Part shown: piece by piece, positions 24,084-42,475 of the stretch | How positions within the stretch are numbered: position 1 is the stretch's first letter | Layout of the letters: each line of letters starts with the position of its first letter | Source of the DNA: Citreicoccus inhibens | Lineage (GTDB): Bacteria; Myxococcota; Myxococcia; Myxococcales; Myxococcaceae | Reading direction: 5' to 3' | Assembly (NCBI RefSeq): GCF_019039035.1 | Contig: NZ_JAHNZT010000002.1 | Span: 434,001-498,000, forward strand | DNA length: 64,000 nt | The notes under the pieces: model-generated | What the model saw: the letters and a program-made list of their open reading frames with translations, nothing else | What the model was told of the DNA's origin: nothing | The model's database searches: none | Translations under genes and position numbers: made by a program

Positions 24084-24698
24084 TCAGCGCGAGGGCTCGC
24101 GCAACAGCGCGCTCAGCTTCTCCAGCGCCAGCCGCGCGCGCGTCTTCACCGTGCCGAGGGGATCTCCGGTGCGCGCGGAGATCTCCCGCTGGGTCAGCCC
24201 ATCGAAGTAGGCCAGCTCCACCACGTGGCGCTGCTCCCAGGGCAGCTGCCGCAGCGCCGCAAGCACGCGTGAGCGCTCCTCCCCCACGGCGACCGCCACG
24301 TCCGGACTGACGGGCGTCGCGCTCACCGGAGGCGGGCTGTGCGTCGCGCCTTCCACCGTCCGCGCCACCGTGCCCAGCGCGCGCAGGCGATCGATGGCAC
24401 GCGTGCGCGCAATGGTCGCCACCCACGTCTCCATGCCGCCACGCGAAGGATCGAACTCACGCGCGCGCCGCCAGACTTCGAGGAAGGTCTCCTGGAGCAG
24501 TTCCTCGGCGTCGGCTCGCGCGGGCAACAGGCGCAGACAGAGCGCGAACGCGCGGCCCGCGCAGCGCGCATAGACATCCCGCATGGCCTGGCTGTCCCCG
24601 AGCGCGACCTGCAGAAGCAGGGCCCGGTCATCCGCCGGGTCGCTCGCTCGGGCTGCGGAGGGTTCGGTGGGCGCCATGTGCGATGCCGGATACCGCAT
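24084..24698 (-). CDS. ECF-type RNA polymerase sigma factor
   Basis: Region 2 includes DAEELLQETFLEVWRRAREFDPSRGGMETWVATIARTRAIDRLRAL and region 4 is LRQLPWEQRHVVELAYFDGLTQREISARTGDPLGTVKTRARLALEKL, the standard two-domain ECF plan that recognises stress-type promoters. No anti-sigma gene lies beside it; the neighbours are a small conserved gene and the glgE operon, from which it is divergently transcribed, so control may be at transcription or through a distant partner. Two Met starts are possible (24698 and 24677). Confidence 0.92.
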   Translation of the reverse strand: MRYPASHMAPTEPSAARASDPADDRALLLQVALGDSQAMRDVYARCAGRAFALCLRLLPARADAEELLQETFLEVWRRAREFDPSRGGMETWVATIARTRAIDRLRALGTVARTVEGATHSPPPVSATPVSPDVAVAVGEERSRVLAALRQLPWEQRHVVELAYFDGLTQREISARTGDPLGTVKTRARLALEKLSALLREPSR

Positions 24699-32275: not shown

Positions 32276-32328
32276 GCTTGAAGTCTGCCCGGACTCACGC
32301 CCCCCGCGATCCGGGTCCGCGATCCCCC

Positions 32329-33021
32329 ATGCCCAACCAGCCTTCGTCCCAGATGCTCGAAGTCGATGTGGACCGCCTCGAGCGCATTCGCGATGTGCTC
32401 GCGATGATCTCGCTCGGTGAGTTTGACCCGGCGCACCACCTCATCCCGGTGGAGAATCACGACGCGTTCTCCTCCTTCGAGGAGACCATCAACCTCTTCG
32501 CCCGGCAGCTCCACGCATCGGTCCGCGAGAACGAGGCCTCCATCCAGAAGCTCGACGCGGCGCGGCGGGACCTGGAGGAGAAGCTCTCCACCATCGAGCG
32601 GCAGCGGATGGCGATTCGCGACCTGTCCACGCCCATCATCGAGCTGTGGGAGGACATCCTCACGCTGCCCATCGTGGGCGTGGTGGACACGCAGCGCTCG
32701 TTGGAGATGACCGAGCGGCTGCTGCACCGCATCTCTCAGGGCAAGGCCCGCTGCGCCATCATCGACATCACCGGCGTCGAGGTGGTGGACACGGCGACGG
32801 CCAACCACTTCGTGAAGATGGTGACCGCGGCGCGCCTGTTGGGCACGTACTGCGTCGTCACTGGCATCAGCCCCGTCATCGCGCAGACGCTCAGCCAGAT
32901 TGGCGTGGACCTGCGGGACGTGAAGACGCTCGGGAGCCTGCGAGACGGCCTGCGCGAGTGCTTCTTGTACCTGCGCAGCCAGGCCGCGCACCGCGCCTTC
33001 GAGTCCAGCCGTCAGGGCTGA
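32329..33021 (+). CDS. RsbR-type STAS protein (stressosome-like)
   Basis: 230 residues. The N-terminal ~95 form a helical sensor/linker with a coiled coil (SIQKLDAARRDLEEKLSTIERQRMAI). The STAS domain begins at IRDLSTPIIELWEDILTLPIVGVVDTQRS, closely matching the RsbR family, and continues CAIIDITGVEVVDTATANHF...LLGTYCVVTGISPVIAQTLSQIGVDL. RsbR paralogues build stressosomes and are phosphorylated on Thr/Ser of the STAS domain by an RsbT-like switch kinase; no such kinase is encoded next to it here. The ATG at 32329 follows the candidate promoter at 32247. Confidence 0.92.
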   Translation: MPNQPSSQMLEVDVDRLERIRDVLAMISLGEFDPAHHLIPVENHDAFSSFEETINLFARQLHASVRENEASIQKLDAARRDLEEKLSTIERQRMAIRDLSTPIIELWEDILTLPIVGVVDTQRSLEMTERLLHRISQGKARCAIIDITGVEVVDTATANHFVKMVTAARLLGTYCVVTGISPVIAQTLSQIGVDLRDVKTLGSLRDGLRECFLYLRSQAAHRAFESSRQG

Positions 33022-33662: not shown

Positions 33663-33694
33663 CGCCTCCGCACTGAACTGCCAGCGGAGCGGCT

Positions 33695-33731
33695 CGAGGA
33701 TTCGCATAGCCTGGGCGCATGCGAATCCTCG
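33695..33731. repeat. Perfect 13-bp inverted repeat spanning the start codon of the next gene
   Basis: Left arm CGAGGATTCGCAT (33695-33707), 11-base loop (33708-33718), right arm ATGCGAATCCTCG (33719-33731). The right arm begins with the ATG of the hydrolase gene, so in RNA the start codon would be paired. In DNA it is a 37-base palindromic site suited to a dimeric regulator. Confidence 0.75.
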
Positions 33732-34282
33732 TGTTGCATTCCGCCTATGGACTGCGCCCCGCGGTGCGGGAGGCCGTCCAACGCCTGGAGGCCGCGGGCC
33801 ATACCGCGACCGCACCGGACCTCTACGCGGGCCAGACCGCCGACGCGCTCGAGCACGCGATTGCACTGCGCGACGCCATGGGCCGCCAGGAGCTTCTCGC
33901 GCGCGCGATGGCGGCCACCGAGGACTTCCGGCCTGACGCCATCCTGGGCTTCAGTCTGGGCGCATCGCTCGCCCAACGCGTCGCGGTGAGGCGCGGGGCG
34001 CCCCTGCGGCTCGTCCTCATCCATGGCGCGGCGGAGAACGCCGAGCGCCCGCATCCTGGACTGCGCATGGTGCTGCACGCTGCCCATGGGGATCCGTTCG
34101 TTCCCGACGATGAACTCGCCGTCTGGACAGACTCCTTCGTGCGAGCGGGTGCCGACGTGACGGTGCATCGCTACGCGGGCGGCGGCCATCTGTTCACTGA
34201 CCCGGGCCTCCCTGACTTCCATCCCGCCTCGACCGCGCGCACGTGGGACAACACCCTCCGGTGGCTCGCGGAGGCAGGCTGA
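33719..34282 (+). CDS. Dienelactone hydrolase-family protein
   Basis: A small alpha/beta hydrolase (187 residues). Nucleophile elbow GFSLGA (Ser79 where classical dienelactone hydrolases have Cys), acid HAAHGDPFVPDDE and catalytic His in GGGHLFTDPGLPDF, all typical of the DLH family's short members. Substrate unknown; classical DLH hydrolyses dienelactone in chloroaromatic breakdown, but most bacterial relatives are unassigned esterases. The ATG lies inside a perfect inverted repeat, suggesting translational or operator control, and the gene is 56 bases after the V4R-like gene. Confidence 0.88.
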   Translation: MRILVLHSAYGLRPAVREAVQRLEAAGHTATAPDLYAGQTADALEHAIALRDAMGRQELLARAMAATEDFRPDAILGFSLGASLAQRVAVRRGAPLRLVLIHGAAENAERPHPGLRMVLHAAHGDPFVPDDELAVWTDSFVRAGADVTVHRYAGGGHLFTDPGLPDFHPASTARTWDNTLRWLAEAG

Positions 34283-40889: not shown

Positions 40890-41480
40890 CTACCTGCCCT
40901 TGCGCGCGCCCGTGTCGTCGCGGAAGGCACCGAGCACTCCCGCCACGTCCAACCGGGACGTCTTGATGAACAGTCGTAATGCGCGCTCGACGTGGTCGCC
41001 CAGGGTGGCCATGCGCTCCAGCCGCTGCAACCGCTCGTGGGGAACGTTGCCGGCCTGCTCCGCCAGACGCCGCGCCTCCGCCAGGTCCGCGCGGATGCGC
41101 GCCACGAAGCCCGCCTCGCGCTCCTCGATGACGTGCGTCACCATGCGCACCAGGTCCGTCTCCGCGCGGTAGCGCCAGACGGTGTCCTGCGGCACGCGCA
41201 CGCGCTGGACGACGCCCCAGCGCTCCAAGTCTCGGAGCAGCATGGAGACGCCGCCCTTGGAGAGATCCAGCTCGCGCTCAATCTCTCCCGCCGTCAGCGG
41301 CTCGCCGCGCAGGTAGAGCAGCCCCCAGACGCGTCCCTGGTTGCGCTTGAAGCCCCAGAACTCGATGACGTTGCCCACCGCGTCCACCGCGATGGCTTCC
41401 CACGGCGCCAGCCGGGCGTTCTCTGTTGGCGCCTCGGGGCGCTGGCTACCGGGCCCCCCCGTCCACAGGTAGCCTTTCAT
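40890..41480 (-). CDS. GbsR/MarR-family transcription regulator
   Basis: 196 residues with a winged helix-turn-helix typical of GbsR (LLYLRGEPLTAGEIERELDLSKGGVSMLLRDLERWGVVQRVRVPQDTVWRYRAETD) and a helical C-terminus. GbsR regulators commonly repress choline/glycine-betaine genes but other members act on unrelated operons. Start ATG at 41480 overlaps the stop of the prenyl synthase gene. The perfect inverted repeat at 42503-42522 next to the -10 of the operon is the obvious candidate operator, which would make it autoregulated. Confidence 0.9.
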   Translation of the reverse strand: MKGYLWTGGPGSQRPEAPTENARLAPWEAIAVDAVGNVIEFWGFKRNQGRVWGLLYLRGEPLTAGEIERELDLSKGGVSMLLRDLERWGVVQRVRVPQDTVWRYRAETDLVRMVTHVIEEREAGFVARIRADLAEARRLAEQAGNVPHERLQRLERMATLGDHVERALRLFIKTSRLDVAGVLGAFRDDTGARKGR

Positions 41481-42475
41481 GCAGCGCGTCCTTTCACCTG
41501 TTCCGCGATGCCTTCCGACAGCCGGCGCGCCCAGCTCACCAACTCCGCGCCCGCGGGCACGTCGGCGTAGTGCCCGAGCTTGTCGAGCGACGCCTCGATC
41601 TCCAGGTTCATGTGCGCCATGGAGGACTCCACCGCGCCCGTCGCCTCGATGGCGGCGCCGATCTCCCGCGTGCGCTCCGGCGTGATCACGGAGAAGGCCC
41701 ACGCGTCCTTCAGCTTGCGGCGCAGGGACTCATCCTTCGCCACGGCCAGGAGGATGGGCATGGAGGGCGTGCGCGAGTGCACGTCCGCGTAGCGCGGCTT
41801 GCCCACGTCGGTGCCGAGGATGTCGCGGATGTCGTCGGCGATCTGGAACGCCACGCCCAGGTGGCGACCGAACCCGTCGAAGCGCGCCACCGCGTCCGGC
41901 GCCATCCCGAGCGTGGCGGCGGCGTTGCCGCACCAGCCGAACAGCGAACCCGTCTTGCCCTCGGCGATGAACCGCAGGCGGGACATGGGCAGGTCCAGGT
42001 CGCCGCGCGCCTCCACCTCGGCGATGGCGGCGCGGGTCATCTCCGCGACCACGGACAGCGCGCTCTGCGTCAGCCGCGAATCCAGCTCGGACAGGCGCTG
42101 CAACCCCGTGGAGAGGATGAGGTCGCCGCTCATCACCGCGACGATGTTGCCCCAGCGAGCGTTCACGGTGGGCCGTCCGCGACGGAACATGCCCGCGTCC
42201 ACCACGTCATCATGCAGGAGGCTGGCCGAGTGGATCAGCTCGGCCGCCACGGCCACGTCCACCAGCTTCTCCGCCTCCACCCCGACCGCGGCGCCGAACA
42301 GCCGCACCAGCATGGGGCGCGCCCGCTTGCTGCCGCTGCCCAGGCACAGGTGACGGGCCGCCTCCATCAGCGTGTCGCCCTTCACGTCTGGACCGGCATT
42401 CCCATCCACCAACATGGAGCCCAGCCGCTGCTCCACATTCCCCAGAAAATCCGTCAGCTCGCGAGCCAGATCCAT
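41477..42475 (-). CDS. Trans-isoprenyl diphosphate synthase
   Basis: 332 residues with both Asp-rich motifs: FARM LLHDDVVDAG (Asp89, Asp90, Asp93) and SARM FQIADDIRDILG, plus GSKRARPMLV. Builds an all-trans prenyl diphosphate from IPP and an allylic primer. The two residues before the FARM (LL) set product length, but chain length cannot be called reliably. First gene of a three-gene operon with a GbsR regulator and a GGCT-like protein; a carotenoid or quinone role is possible but no partner genes are near. Confidence 0.93.
   Translation of the reverse strand: MDLARELTDFLGNVEQRLGSMLVDGNAGPDVKGDTLMEAARHLCLGSGSKRARPMLVRLFGAAVGVEAEKLVDVAVAAELIHSASLLHDDVVDAGMFRRGRPTVNARWGNIVAVMSGDLILSTGLQRLSELDSRLTQSALSVVAEMTRAAIAEVEARGDLDLPMSRLRFIAEGKTGSLFGWCGNAAATLGMAPDAVARFDGFGRHLGVAFQIADDIRDILGTDVGKPRYADVHSRTPSMPILLAVAKDESLRRKLKDAWAFSVITPERTREIGAAIEATGAVESSMAHMNLEIEASLDKLGHYADVPAGAELVSWARRLSEGIAEQVKGRAA

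Follow-up and report, generated by a model that had tools for sequence, protein, structure and literature searches.

A perfect 13-bp inverted repeat overlaps the start codon of a dienelactone-hydrolase-family gene in the window (the whole 64-kb stretch of DNA analysed). The repeat is genuine and conserved, is probably functional, and lies at a probable leaderless promoter. The explanation favoured over both a DNA operator and chance, although put forward tentatively and with less than even confidence, is that the repeat marks this promoter and silences RNA that was begun elsewhere. Conservation within the genus was assessed against one other genome, G001. The elements concerned are:

32278..33021, + strand: STAS-domain protein gene (PF01740, E 3.3e-12), preceding the V4R-like gene and with an uncertain start codon
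33066..33662, + strand: upstream co-directional 'V4R-like' gene, 198 aa, 95% identical in G001; presumed source of read-through RNA
33663..33694, + strand: spacer of 32 nt from the upstream stop codon to the left arm, unusually divergent (17/32 identical to G001)
33695..33707, + strand: left arm, CGAGGATTCGCAT, in non-coding sequence at -24 to -12 relative to the ATG, 13/13 identical in G001
33707..33712, + strand: TAGCCT, putative -10 element of a leaderless promoter, identical in G001
33708..33718, + strand: loop/spacer, AGCCTGGGCGC, 11 nt, with a single G-to-C difference at 33714 in G001
33719..33731, + strand: right arm, ATGCGAATCCTCG, coinciding with nt 1-13 of the hydrolase gene, 13/13 identical in G001
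33719..34282, + strand: dienelactone-hydrolase-family gene, 187 aa (PF01738, Pfam E 9.1e-18)

The inverted repeat and its predicted fold

The initial annotation had described a perfect 13-bp inverted repeat whose right arm coincides with the ATG, and this holds to the base: the arms at 33695-33707 and 33719-33731 form 13/13 Watson-Crick pairs around an 11-nt loop, and the right arm starts exactly at the ATG of the hydrolase gene. The start codon itself is secure, since the N-terminus of the hydrolase (MRILVLHSAYGLRPA) is invariant in all four of the four orthologues. The repeat is the sole such site in the 64-kb window, its centre of symmetry (33713) falls between the -10 box and the ATG, and each arm is nearly palindromic on its own (ATTCGCAT/ATGCGAAT, 6/8). 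A fold much more stable than random had also been claimed, and prediction agrees, with -27.9 kcal/mol for the 47-nt element (z -4.68, none of 200 shuffles as good) and -56.2 for a 108-nt context (z -3.56). Transcribed whole, the repeat would by this prediction bury the AUG.

A strong predicted fold lying 32 nt past the stop codon of the V4R-like gene might suggest an element that stops or stabilises the STAS/V4R-like transcript at its 3' end. This is considered improbable, as no terminator-like site was found by consensus (in a scan allowing loops of 3-8 only), neither arm is followed by a U tract, and such an element would overlap the start of the next gene.

The V4R-like gene had been proposed to encode a sensor acting on the repeat. 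A functional link between its product and the hydrolase or the repeat is not supported: 51 of 96 genomes of the family encode relatives of the V4R-like protein, as against four of 96 for the hydrolase orthologue, and the two genes lie on different contigs in both other-genus genomes that carry both. Nor is the name confirmed, as the protein matches no Pfam or NCBIfam model, that of V4R included, at E<=1e-3. Its family is rich in paralogues within the bacterial family, with up to eight matches per genome.

Conservation within the genus and beyond

In G001 both arms are 13/13 identical and the loop 10/11, while the remainder of the hydrolase gene is identical at 468 of 548 positions. The 32-nt spacer that separates the left arm from the upstream stop codon has the same length in both genomes and is identical at only 17 positions. 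Among 5,157 overlapping 32-nt windows of non-coding sequence, 17 are as low; overall non-coding identity is 91%, a figure that includes missed genes. Among 88 ORFs of a 129-kb syntenic stretch, for which later start codons were allowed and the upstream sequence of at least 56 nt need not be true intergenic space, the hydrolase gene is alone in having an identity of 60% or less at -56 to -25. A left arm identical at 13/13 positions has a probability of 2.7e-4 at the rate of this spacer, of 0.076 at a rate of 0.82 and of 0.29 at 0.91.

These numbers bear on the simplest alternative, namely that the sequence upstream is conserved as a promoter and that downstream as coding sequence, their complementarity being accidental, in which case little follows. 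The syntenic stretch is 93% identical overall between the two genomes, conservation before the start is common (at least 23 of 24 positions at -24 to -1 in 60 of the 88 ORFs), and, of 14 repeats there with 10 bp or more, six remain fully paired in G001, all of which fits with chance. The spacer immediately upstream, however, has the lowest identity among the 88 ORFs (hence the P of 2.7e-4), and the only other long start-codon repeat compared, one of 11 bp, lost two of its 11 pairs in G001. Accident is judged unlikely, though far from negligible. This second repeat spans the ATG of a gene of 274 aa (G000:C46:243691-243722, G000 denoting the genome of the window). Elsewhere on the same contig (G000:C46:416656) lies a perfect 18-bp inverted repeat with a loop of 5, non-coding and AT-rich for the genome, which keeps 16 of 18 pairs in G001.

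The initial annotation had proposed checking whether the repeat is conserved in homologous loci. It is in the sister species, where the arms are identical, but not beyond it: hydrolase orthologues in two genomes of another genus (63-64% identity) have other neighbours and no repeat, an absence that also speaks for chance. The repeat is thus not needed for the hydrolase gene in general. The exact dyad was recovered from two of 60 relatives searched, both of the same genus, hydrolase orthologues from four of 195 genomes of the phylum at E<=1e-25, and a scan of named genomes gave nothing beyond a 31% relative. On the question of RNA or DNA, the spacer immediately flanking the arms is not the same in the two species, yet in both the predicted stem gains three to four pairs there, G-U pairs among them, which lends weak support to a role as RNA. 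Inside the arms nothing has changed across the two genomes, and the comparison cannot decide between RNA and DNA function.

Rarity of the repeat

The repeat was placed against a survey of 864 kb, made up of 40 pieces of 20 kb of the same genome plus the window, with no overlap between them. Six perfect repeats in this survey have arms of 13 or more and loops of 3-20; one order-3 Markov simulation produced 16 repeats of length 11, four of length 12 and nothing beyond that. The present helix is the longest to bridge a start codon in a set of 2,795 candidate starts (up to four per ORF; the gene lists come from an in-house ORF filter rather than a gene caller, and this filter missed the V4R-like gene). 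When upstream regions and starts were re-paired at random, helices of at least 13 arose in three of 55,900 combinations, or about 0.4 per genome if a round figure of 7,500 genes is assumed. This expectation is in keeping with chance, and rarity alone settles nothing: the repeat is exceptional for a given gene, yet not beyond chance genome-wide. Start-codon hairpins as a class show no clear excess among the 2,795 candidate starts, with 29 of at least 9 bp versus 21.7 expected and four of at least 11 bp versus 1.7. In groups chosen by their box, the longest helix is 13 among 37 leaderless-like starts (the second-longest being 8) and 7 among 22 Shine-Dalgarno-led starts. The conservation of the left arm beside a diverged spacer is a stronger argument for function than rarity.

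A probable leaderless promoter

In both the window and G001, TAGCCT begins at -12 and is followed by six bases and then the ATG, the arrangement of a TANNNT-type box. The box shares its first T with the end of the left arm, and its opening TAG forms a stop codon in frame with the gene. No Shine-Dalgarno sequence is seen in GCCTGGGCGC before the ATG, with no GGAG, AGGA or GAGG within 14 nt; a -35-like hexamer is likewise lacking and a sigma-70 consensus scan was negative. A sigma-54 site was also considered and discarded. Such sites have 10 bases between GG and GC, and the GG and GC in the left-arm region are separated by 9.

As TAG at -12 doubles as a stop codon, a simple promoter count is confounded; the uncorrected TANNNT count at -12 (7/192) suffers from such in-frame stop codons, for which a comparison of TAR with TGA corrects. 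Among 782 starts of the genome, in-frame TAR occurs 32 times at -12 and 27 times at -15 versus 4-16 times at each remaining offset between -6 and -45, and in-frame TGA is flat across offsets (13-25). The sixth base of the hexamer that opens with such a TAR is T in 24 of 59 cases at -12/-15 versus 15 of 108 elsewhere (P 2e-4), the two offsets having been pooled after the data were seen; -12 alone against all others gives P 0.018. Starts carrying TANNNT at -12 or -13 number 21, and two of these have a Shine-Dalgarno-like word, in a count likewise confounded by in-frame stop codons. The enrichment of TAR at -15 may reflect starts at a second distance from the box, or start codons placed one codon too far downstream. 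A survey of TANNNT boxes and leaderless genes is reportedly due to Zheng et al. 2011. According to the accessible part of the published survey, TANNNT lies about 12 bp before leaderless starts, and leaderless genes occur in eight of 33 delta-proteobacterial genomes (PMC3160421).

Together, TAGCCT-N6-ATG without a Shine-Dalgarno sequence, the genomic TAR peak and the survey indicate that the hydrolase gene is probably leaderless, with transcription putatively starting from the A at 33719. Transcription beginning with this base would leave the native mRNA without the left arm, so that the hairpin could form only in RNA coming from upstream. The idea that the start codon is buried in an RNA stem thus holds, by prediction, for RNA transcribed whole, and probably fails for the gene's own mRNA.

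This promoter signature also weighs against the proposal that the hairpin is a switch within the normal mRNA, opened by temperature, ligand or a ribosome from the upstream gene. A stable stem over the start codon is what such a switch would have, but each of the three triggers fares poorly. In read-through RNA the AUG is predicted to be buried from 20 to 60 C, with the stem still closed at 60 C (unpaired probability 0.001 for the last base and 0.13 for the first), and an RNA thermometer was accordingly rejected; there is no Rfam match at E<=1, and hence no known riboswitch or other RNA family; and the stop codon of the V4R-like gene ends 32 nt before the left arm, which speaks against opening by its ribosomes. 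Such a switch is very improbable.

Possible silencing of read-through RNA, or a possible DNA operator

The favoured explanation, that the repeat silences read-through RNA, would work as follows. RNA polymerase would recognise TAGCCT (33707-33712) and begin transcription with the A of the ATG (33719). This putative start site would separate the two arms, the right one beginning at it. The hydrolase's own mRNA would then hold the right arm alone and stay translatable as a leaderless message. Read-through RNA from the STAS and V4R-like genes would carry both arms, which would fold into the 13-bp stem, bury the start codon and silence translation, and the hydrolase would thus be made solely when its own promoter fires. 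In the predicted folds at 37 C the three bases of the AUG are unpaired with probabilities of 0.046, 0.004 and 0.000 in the read-through RNA and of 0.434, 0.287 and 0.028 in the leaderless RNA. Several points count against this explanation. The leaderless AUG is itself predicted to be partly paired (0.028 for the third base), read-through RNA without a Shine-Dalgarno sequence would in any case be poorly translated and the benefit may be small, the arms contain no compensatory change in the two sequences compared, and start-codon hairpins lack a clear excess, as noted above. A sharper form of the argument, in which the repeat is split exactly by the leaderless transcription start and one coding sequence is translated or silent according to the origin of its RNA, a one-gene check that the RNA is its own, is offered as a doubtful possibility. 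If silencing does operate, the locus would show how a leaderless gene can be shielded from a busy neighbour upstream with no terminator between them, and would offer an easy way to test whether the AUG must be the very 5' end for leaderless initiation.

The arms could instead act as DNA. Placed symmetrically to either side of the -10 box and the start site, they would be bound by a dimeric or tetrameric regulator, and the promoter would be blocked or remodelled. The initial annotation had raised an operator as well, and the symmetry around the -10 box keeps this a reasonable possibility, although it is judged somewhat unlikely. The centre of symmetry between box and ATG suits an operator, as do the near-palindromic arms (6/8 each). 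The conserved element begins at the left arm, with no conserved -35 region upstream, and this arm covers the -35/-10 spacer, where conservation is not otherwise expected. On the other hand, no convincing second site was found in either of the two genomes of the genus, and so no regulon (9-bp arms, at most three mismatches, N11), the further matches being a weak site and another, within an apparent coding stretch, that looks like chance. With 37 bp in all and 13-bp arms, the dyad is also longer than common repressors usually bind. Nor is there a regulator gene next to the repeat. A scan of 10 neighbours placed the closest regulator-like genes 7-9 kb off:

24084-24698: ECF sigma factor
40890-41702: MarR-type protein

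Were the repeat an operator, it would point to an unknown regulator of a hydrolase.

Comparison with known systems

Leaderless TANNNT genes share with the hydrolase gene the box, its spacing and the absence of a Shine-Dalgarno sequence, and differ in that the accessible parts of the two reports mention no inverted repeat around the box (PMC3160421, PMC12340547). In literature on read-through hairpins, leaderless genes (including those of Myxococcus), TANNNT and IS10, judged mostly from listings, the present arrangement was not found described. Dyad operators overlapping -10 and +1 exist and are comparable in position and symmetry; here, in contrast, the arms are longer and neither a regulon nor an adjacent regulator is apparent. 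In gene e (lysozyme) of phage T4, which has early and late transcripts, the long ones hide the start in a hairpin and shorter ones starting inside it do not. The hydrolase gene would resemble this in that the start is hidden in long transcripts only, whereas T4 has a Shine-Dalgarno sequence and a developmental phage switch. In IS10/Tn10, read-through transposase transcripts are silenced by fold-back. Here the gene is a chromosomal hydrolase gene with no insertion sequence recognised, and its native message is apparently leaderless. What the two would have in common is an inverted repeat that straddles the native transcription start, so that the start codon is covered by folding in RNA begun outside but not in native RNA.
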